Virus record (IMG/VR): IMGVR_UViG_3300009081_000001
Location: 1 to 64,000 of that record
Length of the DNA stretch: 64,000 nucleotides
Direction: 5' to 3' (one strand)
From: a virus
Positions 1,937-61,237 of this stretch are shown here, in pieces. Made by a program: the position numbers and the translations under genes. The notes beneath the pieces were generated by a model. It saw only the letters and a list, made by a program, of their open reading frames with translations, was not told the origin of the DNA and searched no databases. Position 1 is the first letter of the stretch, and every line of letters starts with the position of its first letter.

Positions 1937-3192
1937 TTGTATTTCCTCCTAGTGAAAACCTCTTGATAACAGGACCACCATTGCTTCCAGGTGTTCTCGA
2001 TGGATCGATTCTGCTTGACCCATCGGTGCCCTGTGCGTTGGTAGTGCTCCCGTTTCTCTTTGTCCTTGATGAGTGTAGTGATGGCGCTGTACCAGGCGTC
2101 AGGCTCGTGGTCCACGATAATCCCGCGCTTGTTGCCCCATCCTACAACTCGACCATAGTAGTTGAGAGGGCTTGCCACAACCGCTGCCCCGCCCTCATTT
2201 CCGTCGGAAATGGCCCGACCCGCCGCTAGTCCCTCTGTTGCCTTGATTCCACTTTTGGCATGGTTGAACTTGTCGCCTGGATCTACGGGACAGAGAATGA
2301 TATCTGCTTGCCTGATGACACCTGGATACTCGGTATAGTCCCGAAAGTTCTTGTCGGCGTACAACTGTGCCGGGAACATCAGGGACAATTCCTCGAAGTA
2401 GTCAGGCACGAACCCCATGAGCAAGAGGCTCACGTTGCGGTTCTCGCGTAGCACTCGCGGTATCACGTCCTTGAGCACGATCCAGTCATGGTAGTGTGTG
2501 ACGCTGCCCGTAAGGGCGATAACCAAGCTCTCCCGGTCCCACCGCTTCCACCTGTCCCATCCCTGCCACTCGCTCCACTTGACGCAGTTGGGCAGTACGT
2601 AGACAGGCACGGTAGGGGCATACTGCTTTACAAGGTCGCGCATATAGGGTGTAGTGACCGTGATTGCGTCTCCCTGTGTAAGCAGCTTCTTGGCAAGGTC
2701 CACATGCTCCTTGTACCCAAGGTCGCGTGAGCCCCAGTGGTCGTCGTCGTACTCTAGGACAATGCCCACTTTCTGCCGTGCCATGCGTACCATGTCTAAC
2801 AGGTGAGCTTCACCCTCCAGGGCCACCCCCAACCGCTCCAGCCCGGCCTTGACGTTGGCCGGGATATCCTCGAACTTGGCCGTACCATCTGTACCGTAAG
2901 GAAGAGGGCGGTGCCTGGGCAGTACCCACAGGTCGTAGTCGGTTGGCATGGTCTTGTAGCCCTTGCCACCCGCCGCCCAACGCTGGACTCTGCCGATTGG
3001 TGCCCAGTCCAGCACGGAACCCGGCACCCTCTCCCGTATCTCTTGGAAAGGAATGCGGATCCTGTATGACTCGCACCCGCCCATGACCCCATCATCTCGT
3101 AGATGGATGGCTAGGACGGTGGGCGGCTTACCAGTCGGCTGTCGTCCAGGCTTGCGTTGTGGCGTAGTAAAGCCTGATGTACTTGCGTACAA
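1933..3192 (-). CDS. GT4-type glycosyltransferase
   Basis: A 419-residue glycosyltransferase of the GT-B kind. The N-terminal half carries LEYDDDHWG; the C-terminal half has ALTGSVTHYHDW and the sugar-nucleotide motif EGLAAGR...AVVASPLNYY. The TTG at 3192 is the likely start because GGGGAGG lies six bases upstream; it overlaps the preceding gene by 65 bp. Within the conserved EGLAAG-x-VVASP motif, at about residues 328-332, an extra I-S-D-G-N-E-G-G-A is encoded by a copy of the phage-wide palindrome, apparently an in-frame insertion. Its place inside the tail operon suggests it sugar-modifies a virion protein; this is inference. Confidence 0.8.
   Translation of the reverse strand: MYASTSGFTTPQRKPGRQPTGKPPTVLAIHLRDDGVMGGCESYRIRIPFQEIRERVPGSVLDWAPIGRVQRWAAGGKGYKTMPTDYDLWVLPRHRPLPYGTDGTAKFEDIPANVKAGLERLGVALEGEAHLLDMVRMARQKVGIVLEYDDDHWGSRDLGYKEHVDLAKKLLTQGDAITVTTPYMRDLVKQYAPTVPVYVLPNCVKWSEWQGWDRWKRWDRESLVIALTGSVTHYHDWIVLKDVIPRVLRENRNVSLLLMGFVPDYFEELSLMFPAQLYADKNFRDYTEYPGVIRQADIILCPVDPGDKFNHAKSGIKATEGLAAGRAISDGNEGGAAVVASPLNYYGRVVGWGNKRGIIVDHEPDAWYSAITTLIKDKEKREHYQRTGHRWVKQNRSIENTWKQWWSCYQEVFTRRKYK
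2197..2211. repeat. Palindrome copy 1
   Basis: In the glycosyltransferase gene; read I-S-D-G-N inside a conserved motif. Confidence 0.95.
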
Positions 3193-3775
3193 TCAGCGCC
3201 TCCCCTTCTTCCTGGTCTGTCCAGGCATCTCCCCAAAACGGACCCATCTGCACCTGTTCGCCAAAGCTGTCCACAATGGCCGCTTCGGTGTCTATCTTTG
3301 CCCCCGCCTCACGGAGAGCCTTGATGGTACGATTCTCTACCAGAGAGGCAAGGTGCCCGGCGTCCCGCCTTTCAAGCGTCAGGCCGGGCACCTCATCTCC
3401 CCATACCTCTATCTCGATAGTGAAAGCCCGCGCCATGCGAGAGCCACCACCAACCATCTCATAGTGAGCAGTATGCCTGAGTTGCGCTGCTTCCGATTCC
3501 CCGAAGGATGATATACGCCCTGTCAGATTGCCGCCCGACTGTAGCTGTGGATAGCGCATAGGGTAGTGAGGCCACTCCCTGGCGTTCTCTGGATCGTTCT
3601 CATGGATGAGCACGACAACGGCGCTTGGGTCATCCTGGCGCGGCCCTACCTTGATGGTCGTCATGCGGCTGGCATCGTCGGCGTCTATCTCGGTCTGCAG
3701 CTTGAGGGTAAGCAGATCCACCACGGCATCCATGATGAGATCGCACACCCCCTGCTCGGTAGGCATAGTACTCAT
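3128..3775 (-). CDS. Tail completion/terminator-like protein
   Basis: A 215-residue soluble protein starting MSTMPTEQGVCDLIMDAVVD. An alpha-helical N-terminus followed by mixed alpha/beta sequence, and its place between the adaptor and tail-tube genes, resemble minor capsid or tail terminator proteins. The start overlaps the upstream gene by 4 bp (ATGA-type coupling). No catalytic motif seen. The exact role (neck, tail terminator) is inferred from gene order. Confidence 0.55.
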   Translation of the reverse strand: MSTMPTEQGVCDLIMDAVVDLLTLKLQTEIDADDASRMTTIKVGPRQDDPSAVVVLIHENDPENAREWPHYPMRYPQLQSGGNLTGRISSFGESEAAQLRHTAHYEMVGGGSRMARAFTIEIEVWGDEVPGLTLERRDAGHLASLVENRTIKALREAGAKIDTEAAIVDSFGEQVQMGPFWGDAWTDQEEGEALIVRKYIRLYYATTQAWTTADW

Positions 3776-4443
3776 GTGCGGTCGAGCCTCACGAACTCAT
3801 AGACAACCGGCCCGGTGTACTGCTCTCTAAGCTCGATGTACCTGTCCATGTAGGCTTGTGCCTCTTCTGCAAGAGGGTTCTGCACGTTCAGGTCTTGCTT
3901 CCGTGCCCATTGTTCCAGCCTCGCCCTAGAGGCAGAGTAGGGCAGGAATGCCAAGTAAGCAGCGTAGTACAGTACAGCCAGCTCTCCCCACCTGTGCGTT
4001 CGCAAGTTGAGGGTATCCGTGTCCAATGCAAGCGGGCTGTGCGTGGCACCATAGTAAAGCGTGAAGCTAGTACCTCGCGGTTCCCTCGGGAGATAGAACT
4101 GCGTTTCCGTCGGAAATCCCACGACGTACCGCCTCGGCTCGTCGTTTAGTGCATACGCACCAGGCCGTATCTGCATCGGAGCAAGGTACTCTTGTGTAGA
4201 AGTGGACTCGAAGTAGCCGTACATATTGCGCACGTCTACCGCGTTCTCTGGCATATCGTACTCGTGTTGATCTGATACCACGGTGTAGCTGTTGCTCGAA
4301 GCAATGGGTACGTCCGTGGTCCACTGGGTTATAGCCAGATTGATGAACGTGTCCAGGTCAGTAGTAGTCCACTTCTTTGCAGCCGTATCCTTGAGGAACG
4401 TCTGCAGCTTGGAACGCAAGGTGGAGAGAGCTACCGTTGCCAT
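3772..4443 (-). CDS. Head-tail adaptor (connector) protein
   Basis: A 223-residue protein beginning MATVALSTLRSKLQTFL, with an N-terminal helical region typical of phage adaptor proteins that bind the portal ring (DLDTFINLAITQWTTDVP). It lies directly after the major capsid gene and shares one base with it. A copy of the palindrome at 4103 is read in another frame as G-F-P-T-E-T. Assignment rests on gene order and the helical adaptor pattern. Confidence 0.6.
   Translation of the reverse strand: MATVALSTLRSKLQTFLKDTAAKKWTTTDLDTFINLAITQWTTDVPIASSNSYTVVSDQHEYDMPENAVDVRNMYGYFESTSTQEYLAPMQIRPGAYALNDEPRRYVVGFPTETQFYLPREPRGTSFTLYYGATHSPLALDTDTLNLRTHRWGELAVLYYAAYLAFLPYSASRARLEQWARKQDLNVQNPLAEEAQAYMDRYIELREQYTGPVVYEFVRLDRT
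4103..4117. repeat. Palindrome copy 2
   Basis: In the adaptor gene; read F-P-T-E. Confidence 0.95.
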
Positions 4444-7400
4444 TAGGTGTTGCCCAACTTCTTGTACCCGGCGCTGGAGACGTAGCCAGAGGAGAAGATG
4501 ATCGCGGCCATCTCGGGACGGAACAGGCCGTAGCCGTGAACGCTGTCCCAGGTGACGCGGTACATCGCTTCGCGGTCGTCAATCGCCGGGGGGAACATGA
4601 GCTTGGGCGGTTGCGCGAATCCACCGACCACAGCACCAGCACCGGCAGCCACGATACAAGCATGAATGTGCAACCCCTTGGTGACATAGGCGTAGTTGCC
4701 ATCATCGAGTGCCGTGCCATAGGCTTTCTGGATAGGCCGGTCAAACGTCAGGCGCTTATTGTCCTCGTCAATGCTCACGATGCGCCGGTTGGTGATCGTG
4801 CCGTCCGTCGCATAGGGCGCATTGACCACGGTGTAGGGCTGAGTGGCCCCATCGCTCCGCAGGGTGTGGATCGTCACCACGTCGCCAACGTTGAAGTCAC
4901 CGATAGCGCCAGAATACAGAGTGCCAAGCTGGATATAGCTCGTCACACCGCTATGCTGGCCCTGCTTGTAGGTATCCAGAACCTTGGTCGAGTACAGGCA
5001 CCCGTCGCCCTCATCAATGGCCGCACTGACACCGGCCTGCGCCGTGATCACGCCCATGTTGTACAAAGTACACTGGGGCACCTGGACGTAGCGCAAGCCC
5101 TTGTACTGGCCCATCTCATACCGCAAGAGGCTACGGGCACCGATCTCGCTGTACTGCGCGATTGCCTTATAGTCTGCGTCCTGCTGCGCGGTGTAGATTT
5201 GGCCGGGGGATGCGAACGCCACAGCGTTGACACCGTTGGGCGAGTTCGGATCCATGACTTGGTTGTACATGAACTCCAAAGAGATATCCATCGCCAAGTC
5301 TGGATCGAACACGTCACTCGCGCCGATGTCTCCGAAGCCGGTCCCGCCACCGACGATGTACCGCACCGGAAGACTCAGGAACGCATTGCGAACCTGCGTC
5401 TCCATGTGGTCCACGATAGCATCAGCCATCAGTTGACGGCACAGGGGAGCCAGCGAACCGGCCTGACCACCAGACGAAACAAAGAAAGTGATCAGGTTGT
5501 CGTCCAAGTTGTTACTCTATCAAACCTATAGTATAATGTTCACAAACATGAAAGGAGCTTCCAATGTCTTATACGGTCGTTACCTGTCCTACTTGCGGCG
5601 GTGAGATGAACAGCAGATCCAAGAAGTGTAAGCACTGCACTGGTAGTAAGACTGTAGCCAGTCGGCCAAGCCAGATTGATACTTGCCCCATCTGTGGTGG
5701 GCCGAAGAACAAGACGGCTAAGACCTGTAAGGGATGCCAGTACAAGGACCGCAAGCGCACCTGTCATCCTCGCCGTAGGGTTGACTATCCAGACCTGGCC
5801 CTCGTTCCTGATACTTGGTGGCTTGCCTTTATCGGCTTCTTCATGGGAGAGGGTTCTGTTCGTCTGTACAAGTGTGGTCACAGCTTGCCCCAAGTTGGCC
5901 TTAGTATGTCTCTTCGGGCCGATGATGCCGCCGTAATGGAAGACATTTGCACTCATATTGGCGGCATTCTCTACGATGAAGTCAAGCCCGGTCTTAATCC
6001 TATGGTCAAGTGGGCTGCCCACAGTGCTGGTCATACAGAAACCATTGTTCGTGTCATGCTGCGTCCAGAGTTCCGCATCCTACCAGCTAAGAAGTGGGCC
6101 GATCTTGAGCTTGTCCTTGAGTATATCGACTGGCGCAAGTCCAAGCCCTACCACTTATCACCAGATGACCGGGAGATTGCTCTTAGCTACCCCGACCGTT
6201 TGAAAGCTATTCATGTTTGTAAGGTTCGATAGGGGGTAGGTTCTTTATCCTACCCTCTTACGGTTTCCCGTAAGTGCAGACTATATCTTCATCCGGTCTG
6301 GATGCCGGGCACTCTTGGGCAGCTTATTGCCTGTGCTGGCTCACCGCCTAGTCGTTGAACCTTCCCCATACTGACTTGCACTTTCAGGGGCTTGGCTGCT
6401 GATTGCCCAATCCCTAGACTTTTTAAACCTTCGCGCTTGCCGTTTCCAGCTACGCTGTAGTGTCTAGGGCTCTCAGGGGTTTCCAGCATTTCACCCGGTA
6501 CTTTCTACCGCATATTCCTACGCGGCCAAGCTCGATTTGAACTTGTTGAGGGCGATCTTCCCACCGTAGCTGGCAAGCTCCAGCTCGGTTTGCCAACCGT
6601 CTGCAAACATGGTCGGGAGCCACAGTTTGTTACTAGCGATACTTTGTGCTATAATTCAGAACTATAGCATTGTGTTCACAAGCCTGATAACTTTCTCAAG
6701 GAGAATAGAATGACACCTAACCCAAGACCGTGTAGATTATCACTTGCCGAGATGGTGAGCCTTTACCACGATGGGCTGTCAACTGAGGCGATTGGTGTTC
6801 TTGCCGACCGCGACCAATCCGTTGTCTTTCGCCAGCTAAAGAAGGTTGGTGTAGAGATGCGTCCTGCTCACGGTCCTGCAATTTACTCTGTCAATCACAC
6901 CTTCTTCGATGAGATTGACACACCAGAGAAAGCCTACGTACTTGGTTTCTTTATCACCGATGGCTGCGTAGTAGACCATGCTGGTAAGCAGAGATTGCAG
7001 TTTCACTTGAAGTTGAGCGATGCTGCACACCTAGAACTAATAGCGGCAGCCATGTGTCTTACTGCTCCTGTACGACTGCGGCCCAAGTATGCAGAGCTTG
7101 TCTGGTATTCCCGCCCTCAAGTGGAGGCCCTTGCTCGGCTCGGTGTTATGCCCCGCAAGTCTTTTACCGTTGGGTATCCAGCCCTGCGCCCGGATCTCCA
7201 TAGAGACTTTATCCGTGGCCTGTTCGATGGTGATGGTTGTATCAGGCCAGAGCGATTCTGGCTCTGTGGTTCCTCACTCCATTTGTTATCCACCGCTAGG
7301 CAGATTGTCCTTGATTCTGTTCCTCTAGAGCGAACCCTGCCCCCCATTGGTTCTCAAGAACGCCTGCACCAGCCGATCTATCGCTGGAGTGGCTGCAAGA

Positions 7401-8024
7401 TTCAGGCCCCGGTATTGCGCTGGCTCTATAAAGATGCCTATATTGCCCTTGAAAGAAAGCTATCAGTTGTTAAAGAACACTGGTCCTAGTATCGCCGGGT
7501 AAGCTGTTTATGCTTACCTCTCTGCCTTTCGGTCAGAGTTCGGACTATATCATCACCTTACTATTGCGTAAGGGCCGGGCACTCTTGGGGAGATTATCGC
7601 CTGTTCTAGCTCACTCCCTAGTCTCTGAACCTTCTCCCTACTATCATCGAATCTTCGGGAGCTTGGCTGCTGATTTTCCAATCCCTGTCCTTTTTTAACC
7701 ATCACGCTCACCGTTTCCAGTCTCGTTGTGGTGTCCAGGGCTCTAAGGAAGTTCCAGCAATTCACCCGGTTTAAGCAGCTCTGGCTAGTTCCAAAGCTCG
7801 CGGGCTCCGATTGCCGAGATGTCGGGCTCCAAGCCCCACAAGCCGGTCCAGATCATTTTCTTGGTCTTCATGGCGCTGAAGTCTACCTTGACCGGCACCA
7901 ACTGCGAAAGAGAAACCGTCTGCCGAAAGGCCCGTTGGAGTTCAGGAACGTACCAATCACGCTGATTGATGTCCCATGCACTCCAGGGTTCCAGGCTGTA
8001 ATAGCCGTCGAATGTAGTAGTCAC
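4443..8024 (-). CDS. Major capsid protein, split by two group I introns
   Basis: Three exons on the minus strand: 8024-7794 (77 codons), 6622 to about 6521 (34 codons) and about 5504-4443 (353 codons plus stop), giving roughly 464 residues. Exon 1 runs from MTTTFDGYYSLEP to ...GARE-L; exon 2 starts WLPTMFADGWQTELELASYG; exon 3 starts DDNLITFFVSSGG. Exon 3 (FMYNQVMDPN, VQVPQCTLYNMGVITAQAG, DEGDGCLYS) resembles N4 gp56-family capsid proteins. The exon 1/2 junction is supported by a P1 helix (exon AGCTT|TGG with intron CCAGAGCT, including a U.G pair at the splice site) and a 5-bp P10 pairing (TGGCT/AGCCA). The exon 2/3 junction is less certain. It follows the scaffold gene. Confidence 0.8.
5509..5537 (+). 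promoter_or_regulatory. Sigma-70 promoter of intron 2 endonuclease
   Basis: TTGTTA at 5509, a 17-bp spacer, TATAAT at 5532, reading into the antisense endonuclease gene. GTTCAC, the putative operator half-site, follows directly. The same TTGTTA-17-TATAAT arrangement is present in intron 1. Confidence 0.8.
5564..6232 (+). CDS. LAGLIDADG homing endonuclease with N-terminal zinc ribbons
   Basis: A 222-residue protein. Residues about 8-26 and 44-64 form two CxxC...CxxC zinc ribbons (CPTCGG...CKHC; CPICGG...CKGC). A LAGLIDADG-type motif follows (LAFIGFFMGEGSVRL), with the acidic residue in GEG. Such enzymes cut intron-less alleles to spread their intron. It starts at ATG 5564 after AAAGGAGC. It is encoded on the strand opposite to the intron and capsid gene, so it cannot be made from capsid mRNA and depends on its own promoter. 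One LAGLIDADG motif suggests it acts as a dimer. Confidence 0.8.
   Translation: MSYTVVTCPTCGGEMNSRSKKCKHCTGSKTVASRPSQIDTCPICGGPKNKTAKTCKGCQYKDRKRTCHPRRRVDYPDLALVPDTWWLAFIGFFMGEGSVRLYKCGHSLPQVGLSMSLRADDAAVMEDICTHIGGILYDEVKPGLNPMVKWAAHSAGHTETIVRVMLRPEFRILPAKKWADLELVLEYIDWRKSKPYHLSPDDREIALSYPDRLKAIHVCKVR
6627..6655 (+). promoter_or_regulatory. Sigma-70 promoter of intron 1 endonuclease
   Basis: TTGTTA at 6627, 17-bp spacer, TATAAT at 6650, followed by ATTCAGAAC and GTTCAC operator-like half-sites. It points into the antisense endonuclease gene. Confidence 0.8.
6710..7489 (+). CDS. Double-motif LAGLIDADG homing endonuclease
   Basis: A 259-residue protein. An N-terminal helix-turn-helix-like stretch (residues about 10-45, LSLAEMVSLYHDGLSTEAIG) precedes two LAGLIDADG motifs: AYVLGFFITDGCV near residue 80 and DFIRGLFDGDGCI near 170, each with the catalytic acidic residue. 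Two motifs imply a monomeric enzyme. ATG at 6710 is preceded by AAGGAG. It is antisense to its intron, like its neighbour in intron 2, but the two proteins are not close relatives (no zinc ribbons here). Expected role: mobility of intron 1. Confidence 0.85.
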   Translation: MTPNPRPCRLSLAEMVSLYHDGLSTEAIGVLADRDQSVVFRQLKKVGVEMRPAHGPAIYSVNHTFFDEIDTPEKAYVLGFFITDGCVVDHAGKQRLQFHLKLSDAAHLELIAAAMCLTAPVRLRPKYAELVWYSRPQVEALARLGVMPRKSFTVGYPALRPDLHRDFIRGLFDGDGCIRPERFWLCGSSLHLLSTARQIVLDSVPLERTLPPIGSQERLHQPIYRWSGCKIQAPVLRWLYKDAYIALERKLSVVKEHWS

Positions 8025-8056
8025 TTCTTATCTCCCTATGTTTGTGTGGGAGTCCT

Positions 8057-59818: not shown

Positions 59819-61237
59819 ATGAGAGCGGGAATCATGGCGAGGGTGAGCACCGAGGAGCAGCTTGCGGGCTATTCTATCGGCGCTCAGGTAGATGCAATGC
59901 TCAAGTTCTGCGAGGAACAGGGCTGGCAGGTCATGGAAAGGTACATCGAAGAGGGTGTATCTGGCACAACGTCTAACCGGCCCGAGCTACAGAGAGCTTT
60001 GCGCGATGCAGAAGCGGGGAAACTAGATGTGCTGCTTACCCACCAGCTTGACCGCTTTTACCGAAACCTGCGCCTACAGATCGAGACGCTTGGTAAGCTA
60101 GGAGAGATGGGAGTTGGGTATCTATCTATCACCGAGAGGATTGACTACTCAACTCCCACCGGTATGCTATTCATGCAGATGTTGGGCGCGTTCAACGAGT
60201 ACTATTCCAGCAATCTGGCACGCGAGGTTAGGAAGGGCAAGCAGGGTAGAGCAGAGAGTGGTTTGACCAATGCAACGTTCTTGCCCCACGGTTACAAGAG
60301 GGTAGAGAAGGAAGCCGTCATAGAACCAGTAAGGGCAGAGACAATCCATTACATCTTCAAGCTATATGCAACAGGGCTTTACTCCTATCGGGCAATTGCA
60401 GATAGGCTCAATGCAGAAGGACACCCCGCAAGCAGTAGGAGTAAGGGAAAGTGGATCTGGCAAGCAGTGAGGGGTATCATTGAGAATCCCTACTACATCG
60501 GTCTTATCAGGCACAACGAAAAGATGTATCAGGGCAAGCACGAACCTATCATCGAGCGCAAGTTGTGGGATATGGCGCAACGAGTGAGGGAACAACGTGC
60601 AACATCGTACACTCATTCGAGGACAAAGGAAACTTTCATCTTGCGCGGCACCGGCCACTGTCTTGCCTGTGGTAGTAGGCTGTATGCAGAGAGTCATGGG
60701 AAGAATAGGTACTACCGTTGCAGTGGAAACCAAAAGGGGGTAAGTTGCACAGTTCCATTTGCAAGGGTGGAAAAGGTAGATGCAAGTTTGGCAGAGCTTG
60801 TATCTCACGCGCAACTACCAGGAAACTGGCGTGAAGAGATTGCAAGAGCTATGCAAGGGCCAGTTTCCAACGATGGCAACAAGCGCAAGTACTTGCAAGA
60901 GAAGTTGCGCCGGTTGCGTGAGCTGTACCTTGAGGATGACTTTACCAAGGAGGAGTACAATCAAAGGAAACGTGAATTGGAAAGTGAGATTGCAAGGCTA
61001 CAACCACCAGGGAAACCAGACGACATTGACGCCGAGTTGATTGCAAACCTGAGTAAACTGTGGGAGGGAGCTGAGTTGCAGCAACGCACCGACCTTGCAA
61101 ACATCCTCTTTCGTAGTGTAGAGGTAGATATGCAAGAGGAAAGGGTAGTTTCCTTTGAGTCGTACCCCGAACATGCAATGTTGTTCCGGCTTATCTTTGA
61201 GGAAAGGGAAGGGAAGTTCTACAATGGACAGGCATAA
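59819..61237 (+). CDS. int: Large serine recombinase (integrase)
   Basis: 472 residues (ATG 59819; ATG 59834 also possible). N-terminal resolvase domain: ARVSTEEQ (catalytic Ser 10), TSNRPELQRALRDAEAGKLD, HQLDRFYRN and FMQMLGAFNEYYSSNLAREV. Recombinase domain about 160-260; zinc beta ribbon CLACGSRLY...YRCSGNQKGVSC; C-terminal coiled coil about 360-420. Large serine recombinases integrate phage DNA between attP and attB and need a separate directionality factor to excise. ATG behind a palindrome and GAGGACTGA. No attP core was identified. Confidence 0.9.
   Translation: MRAGIMARVSTEEQLAGYSIGAQVDAMLKFCEEQGWQVMERYIEEGVSGTTSNRPELQRALRDAEAGKLDVLLTHQLDRFYRNLRLQIETLGKLGEMGVGYLSITERIDYSTPTGMLFMQMLGAFNEYYSSNLAREVRKGKQGRAESGLTNATFLPHGYKRVEKEAVIEPVRAETIHYIFKLYATGLYSYRAIADRLNAEGHPASSRSKGKWIWQAVRGIIENPYYIGLIRHNEKMYQGKHEPIIERKLWDMAQRVREQRATSYTHSRTKETFILRGTGHCLACGSRLYAESHGKNRYYRCSGNQKGVSCTVPFARVEKVDASLAELVSHAQLPGNWREEIARAMQGPVSNDGNKRKYLQEKLRRLRELYLEDDFTKEEYNQRKRELESEIARLQPPGKPDDIDAELIANLSKLWEGAELQQRTDLANILFRSVEVDMQEERVVSFESYPEHAMLFRLIFEEREGKFYNGQA

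Follow-up and report, generated by a model that had tools for sequence, protein, structure and literature searches.

Antisense placement of a homing endonuclease gene (HEG) within a phage intron is already known from the capsid intron of mycobacteriophage LittleE (JF937101), for which splicing was shown by reverse transcription-PCR and in which a LAGLIDADG HEG lies on the bottom strand (PMC3706429). Nuclear group I introns of ribosomal DNA (rDNA) with antisense HEGs have also been described, namely S956-2 of Didymium iridis and L2066 of D. squamulosum with its enzyme I-DsqI (PMC9548176, PMC3679873, PMC3073962). In phage T4, all three intron HEGs are in the sense orientation, and every HEG is sense to its surroundings except the free-standing segD beside the capsid gene (PMC2988022). 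Here, we describe two introns, designated A and B, in the major capsid gene of a virus represented by IMG/VR record IMGVR_UViG_3300009081_000001. The stretch analyzed, referred to as the window, comprises the first 64 kb of this 87,059-base record. We consider A and B likely to be sister mobile group I introns of an IA-like type, each with an antisense HEG in the loop of P9.2 and a promoter of its own.

Searches with the Rfam group I model RF00028 returned exactly two matches, both on the minus strand, and the result was the same for the window and the whole record. Intron B matched at 6558-6257 (91.6 bits, E = 3.4e-22) and intron A at 7819-7520 (68.4 bits, E = 3.1e-15); both scores lie above the gathering score of 50, and a conserved P3-P9 core was present in each. 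Splice sites were fixed by alignment to the intronless capsid homologues found in IMG/VR (L004, L006 and L008), with P1 pairs assigned by eye. On this basis, intron A occupies 6623-7793 (1171 nucleotides (nt)) and intron B 5504-6540 (1037 nt), both on the minus strand. The gene reads, also on the minus strand, exon 1 (7794-8024, with a GTG start at 8024 and 73-76% identity with L005, L006 and L008), which ends in GAGCTT, then intron A, then exon 2 (6541-6622, 82 nt), which runs from TGGCTC to AACAAGT, then intron B and finally exon 3 (4443-5503), which begins ACGACAAC. Exon 2 lies between the insertion sites and aligns with L004, L006 and L008. Exon 3 encodes the bulk of the major capsid protein, matches the PHROG 1357 major head protein (1.6e-5) and has homologues that are 64-79% identical. 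The last base of both introns is G, and both 5' splice sites follow a U. At the 5' splice site of intron A (AGCUU/UGG, cut at the slash), P1 could be read directly as AGCUUUGG/CCAGAGCU, with a U.G pair at the cut, and P10 as UGGCU/AGCCA.

Removal of both introns yields a 457-amino acid (aa) capsid frame containing 0 stop codons. When the predicted spliced protein was compared with the three intronless homologues, both junctions aligned without gaps or extra residues, and the codons joined at site B encode K-Y-D-N-L, to be compared with KYDEL in a homologue. Production of the capsid protein from another gene copy, which the original prediction had named as a possible refutation, was addressed by searching the genome, and a single copy was found. 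The interruption of the phage's only major capsid gene by two group I introns, as predicted, is confirmed at the level of sequence. The span of 5505-7793 originally assigned to the introns was right to within 1 nt but includes the 82-nt exon.

The two introns had also been claimed to be related, and this was borne out. Their cores share 79.2% identity over 197 nt (168 bits), and no sampled intron comes as close to either of them, the next-best match among all sampled loci scoring 99.6 bits for A and 143 bits for B. The 3' tails also align, with TTGTGAACA, CTATAG and AGTAACAA common to both. An insertion of ~35 nt was seen between P7 and P3', the position of P7.1/P7.2 in group IA introns. A further group I intron was observed in the homologous capsid gene of L005 (L005:561-830, 31.5 bits). 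This 270-nt intron has no HEG, ends in AGTAACAGAAGG, carries a short hairpin at the place of P9.2 and is inserted 4 nt upstream of the intron B site.

Each intron contains, on the opposite strand, an intact open reading frame (ORF) with a Shine-Dalgarno-like AAGGAG/AAAGGAG ahead of its ATG. HEG-A (6710-7489, plus strand, 259 aa) matched Pfam LAGLIDADG_3 (PF14528; 7.8e-8, 32.9 bits against a cut-off of 22.5) and the PHROG 4645 endonuclease (5.5e-33). It has two LAGLIDADG-like motifs, GFFITDGC and GLFDGDGC, and an N-terminal part that by eye is helix-turn-helix-like. Relatives of HEG-A were found in 87 phage records, and several of the nine inspected sit between the pieces of split genes (e.g. 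DNA polymerase, RecD and gyrase A). Given that all nine have the same orientation as their neighbors, HEG-A is reversed relative to its family. HEG-B (5564-6232, plus strand, 222 aa) has a pair of zinc-ribbon-like motifs and a single LAGLIDADG-like motif (GFFMGEGS). Its profile matches were weak (DZR, and PHROG 5046 at 0.014), the Pfam LAGLIDADG profile gave no match, and no relative was found in the phage collection; a weak similarity to the LittleE intron HEG was seen (30% over 57 aa, E = 5e-4 in a two-sequence comparison). Homology between HEG-A and HEG-B was undetectable beyond the LAGLIDADG-like motif, in keeping with the original description of different enzymes encoded opposite the introns. 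Pattern scans of viral contigs for each HEG matched only the overlapping contig L003.

Downstream of the P9 and P9.1 hairpins, each intron has a predicted stem that encloses the HEG, which is thereby located in the P9.2 loop, after P9.1 and before the 3' terminus, as in the LittleE layout. The stem has 31 predicted base pairs (bp) in each intron and is formed between the HEG leader and the final ~30 nt of the gene together with its stop codon. For intron A, the 5' strand (7455-7496) overlaps the 3' coding end and stop of HEG-A, and the 3' strand (6635-6695) is the HEG-A leader, including the spacer between the -35 and -10 elements discussed below. For intron B, the 5' strand (6201-6232) likewise overlaps the 3' coding end and stop of HEG-B, and the 3' strand (5517-5563) corresponds to the leader of HEG-B as far as its start codon; all four strands are given on the minus strand. 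Folding energies on the intron strand gave z values of -6.0 for A and -6.3 for B, with 0/400 shuffles reaching either, in a comparison that controls composition only for a stem that overlaps coding sequence. The sequences of the two stems differ while pairing is kept in both, as would be expected of a selected stem.

A predicted promoter, TTGTTA-17-TATAAT, precedes each HEG on the plus strand, at 6627-6655 for HEG-A, with its -35 within the last 10 nt of intron A, and at 5509-5537 for HEG-B, with its -35 within the last 11 nt of intron B. These promoter-like elements are placed at the intron 3' ends as originally described, and TTGTTA-N17-TATAAT with 0 mismatches occurs nowhere else in the window. 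The best promoter scores in the 110 nt upstream of the two HEGs were reached by 6/300 and 3/300 shuffles. However, TTGTTA corresponds to TAACAA on the intron strand, and the -35 is the reverse complement of a conserved GTAACA 3' terminus. Among 56 related introns picked by the P9.1 motif AGGCAGAAATGACCT, GTAACA was present within 160 nt after P9.1 in 45, compared with 1/56 for a control stretch. A broad survey based on P7 gave 19/123 versus 4/101, and a GTAACA terminus general to all IA introns was rejected, the signal being strong only in the P9.1-motif family. The predicted -35 is thus the intron's own 3' terminus in a second use, and for this reason TTGTTA by itself is no evidence of a promoter. 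What argues for a promoter is solely that each intron has an exact TATAAT at a spacing of 17 bp, and the two TATAAT elements are not at homologous alignment positions.

An operator of the T4 type, in which a copy of the homing site lies at the promoter, was not found for HEG-A at site A or HEG-B at site B. The HEG-A leader at 6678-6696 resembles the exon 3 flank of site B at 5503-5480 (18 nt with one gap and one mismatch; 7/2000, uncorrected). This likeness could reflect a cross-regulatory site or chance; it is not claimed as an operator, the leader segment also being a P9.2 strand. The predicted -10 of HEG-A lies within a near-palindrome, GCTATAATTCAGAACTATAGC (window 6646-6670), which may act as an operator or form an RNA hairpin.

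These features can be combined in the following model of sister mobile introns. From the ribozyme cores, the splice-site rules and the homologues, we infer that the two ribozymes excise themselves from the minus-strand capsid pre-mRNA and that the 82-nt exon is left between them. The HEG, lodged antisense in the terminal loop of P9.2, would for that reason leave the ribozyme core intact. Given that nearly all other genes of this arm are on the minus strand, each HEG would have its own sigma-70-type promoter, in which the -35 would be the reverse complement of the (A)GTAACA terminus, the spacer would contain the 3' strand of P9.2, and the -10 would lie in the HEG leader. The intron would have accommodated the ends of the HEG: its leader and 3' coding end would build the 31-bp stem, and the gene would form one large loop. 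Each endonuclease would cut an intronless capsid allele at its own exon junction, and repair would then copy the intron in. One ancestral intron probably moved to a second site in the same gene, swapped its HEG and kept its core and 3' tail. The suggestion that antisense expression uncouples the HEG from late capsid mRNA, and could interfere with splicing, is plausible.

Several observations weigh against this model or parts of it. The introns are known here from environmental DNA sequence alone, and P10 of intron B is weak. Both enzymes had been assigned to the LAGLIDADG family, and for HEG-A this holds; for HEG-B, the assignment depends on one motif and the weak similarity noted above. AlphaFold models of both HEGs were uninformative (predicted local distance difference test ~35). 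No good sigma-70-like promoter was found for the antisense HEGs of LittleE or of three further loci described below (L194, L262 and L230), and the promoter could therefore be particular to this phage or fortuitous. A terminator that would stop the HEG transcript ahead of the ribozyme core was looked for, and none was found.

A stronger form of the interference idea holds that this DNA can be in one of two states, one permitting splicing and the other endonuclease expression, but never in both. Here, the antisense promoter would be built from the intron 3' terminus and a P9.2 strand, and its transcript would carry the complement of the ribozyme core. Antisense transcription, coming early, would yield endonuclease and block capsid splicing; sense transcription, coming late, would shut the promoter off and let splicing proceed. 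We regard this proposal as rather unlikely.

The HEGs may alternatively be passive, barely expressed passengers of genuine introns, with TTGTTA being simply the 3' terminus and TATAAT a chance AT-rich match in the leader. The conserved terminus does account for TTGTTA, promoters of this kind were not found at the other antisense HEGs examined, and T4 segD, antisense beside a capsid gene, has no identified promoter and a transcript thought to be very low (PMC2988022). We nevertheless consider this explanation unlikely, as it must accommodate an exact TATAAT at 17 bp in both introns despite non-homologous alignment positions, two exact promoter matches in 64 kb that both fall at these introns, and two intact ORFs with Shine-Dalgarno-like sequences. 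Expression of the HEGs by read-through from a distant plus-strand promoter appears highly improbable. Plus-strand early-type genes are indeed located in the genome's other half, but long antisense read-through would be required, the flanking 1-26 kb consisting almost entirely of minus-strand genes.

The inverted repeats flanking the HEGs could also serve the HEG mRNA, in which the leader would pair with the ORF end and limit translation, and not the intron. Pairing is possible on both strands (z of -3.6 for A and -5.2 for B on the antisense strand), and in intron B it covers the leader up to the start codon. By contrast, pairing on the intron strand is stronger, five of its G-U pairs become C-A mismatches in the mRNA, the Shine-Dalgarno-like stretch of intron A lies outside the paired region, and L005 and LittleE show a P9.2 helix at this position but no long HEG arms; a role confined to the mRNA is thus rather improbable. 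A broken capsid pseudogene, or an artefact of assembly, with no splicing in either case, is scarcely credible. The contig is environmental and not from an isolate, yet L003 is 100% identical over 6009 nt, from within HEG-B through exon 3, group I splice sites restore frame and homology exactly, and no second copy of the capsid gene was found.

With regard to the wider genome, the first 103 bases of the record are identical to its last 103 bases, and L003 spans both record ends; this terminal repeat and the bridging contig make it probable that the genome is complete, with a length of about 86,956 bp. A large serine integrase-like protein (PHROG 95, 5.7e-106) is encoded at window 59819-61237, and the phage is therefore probably temperate. 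No relatives of the capsid protein that would point to a host were found in bacterial genomes. The capsid gene of L007 (L007:5880-6290) has no exon 2 equivalent and also lacks another segment of ~22 residues. Interpretation of the exon 2 gap as a homing scar was rejected given the similar gap elsewhere in the gene, an assembly error being likely. The palindrome TTCCGWCGGAA, which may be a stoperator-like or regulator-site-like element, occurs in 37 copies spread throughout the window (2199 to 63489), where shuffling gives an expectation of 0. Its absence from both introns had been taken to indicate their later arrival, but this argument fails because 17-20% of random placements of two such blocks are also palindrome-free; the absence is uninformative on arrival time.

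To place the locus among other phage introns, two motif scans of IMG/VR were used, yielding 223 intron-core places in a survey that is biased by its motifs and in which HEGs were detected by simple profiles and motif searches. Approximately 28 introns with sense HEGs were identified, long ORFs supported only by regular-expression matches having been set aside, compared with six antisense HEGs inside introns beyond the window and LittleE (L190, L194, L262, L230, L212 and L157). This supports the earlier statement that the endonucleases of phage introns are mostly encoded on the intron strand, as are the three of T4. An association of antisense HEGs with capsid genes was rejected: 5/6 antisense and 16/~28 sense HEG introns interrupt such genes (Fisher p = 0.37), and for either HEG orientation the survey shows capsid genes to be a hot spot for introns.

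The L190 intron, in a capsid gene, is 80% identical to that of LittleE over 213 nt (reverse complement positions 4681-4892), whereas the capsid genes are only about 30% identical, which suggests that intron and HEG spread together. The introns of L194, L262 and L230 interrupt PHROG 1357 capsid genes, and that of L212 a relative of the L230 gene. In L230 and L212, two tandem introns occupy one capsid gene, with an antisense LAGLIDADG HEG in the second, and these two loci are the closest parallel to the layout in the window. In L157, a gene resembling that of DNA polymerase III alpha contains a group I intron followed by an antisense ORF with a PF18780 homing-endonuclease-associated repeat (L157:8733-9651), and a second group I core is present at 7748-8044. 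In Providencia phage PSTCR6, an antisense NUMOD3 ORF lies between DNA polymerase gene pieces (L148:1546-2670), upstream of a group I core at 2966-3275. Two candidates were excluded from the antisense set: L063, where the HEG is past the end of the interrupted gene, and L082, where it is past an apparent transfer-messenger RNA (tmRNA) 3' end (CCCGCCACCTCCACTA, by eye). At L082:12856-13513, a group I intron near this apparent end precedes a convergent LAGLIDADG-like ORF, which lies beyond the intron; ARAGORN found no gene in L082.

In comparison with described systems, LittleE shares with the window a group I-like intron in the major capsid gene, a bottom-strand LAGLIDADG HEG after P9.1 and a P9.2 helix that closes the HEG (LittleE 3' end, AGTAACAAG). 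It differs in having one intron, in another capsid family and at another site, with a 7-bp outer P9.2 helix (CAGCGAA/UUCGCUG) in place of the 31-bp stem, and no sigma-70-like promoter was found there. The five further capsid-gene loci (L190, L194, L212, L230 and L262) likewise contain group I-like introns with antisense LAGLIDADG HEGs. None has an Rfam match, and their assignment as introns is based on P7/P9.1 motifs and reading frame. The HEG follows P9.1 in L190 only and is upstream of P7 in L194, L262, L230 and probably L212; a strong promoter, unlike in the window, was not found in L194, L262 or L230.

The Didymium introns resemble those described here in that the HEG runs opposite to the ribozyme and a promoter of its own has been reported or proposed for it, and in D. 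squamulosum the HEG is also within P9.2. They are, however, eukaryotic rDNA introns of the IC1/IE types that encode His-Cys enzymes from a polymerase II transcript with a spliceosomal intron. The td intron of T4, with its enzyme I-TevI, is comparable as a phage group I intron whose HEG promoter lies inside the intron and uncouples the HEG from the host transcript, but it differs in its sense orientation, GIY-YIG enzyme, hairpin-blocked ribosome-binding site and homing-site-like operator (PMC2988022). Open-licence papers were searched for precedents, and none was found for a phage gene holding two introns with antisense HEGs, for a promoter that overlaps the 3' terminus of an intron or for a P9.2 stem made from the ends of a HEG. 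Taken with LittleE and the six further cases, antisense HEGs represent a recurring, under-described layout of phage introns, and such introns allow direct tests of antisense interference with ribozyme splicing.

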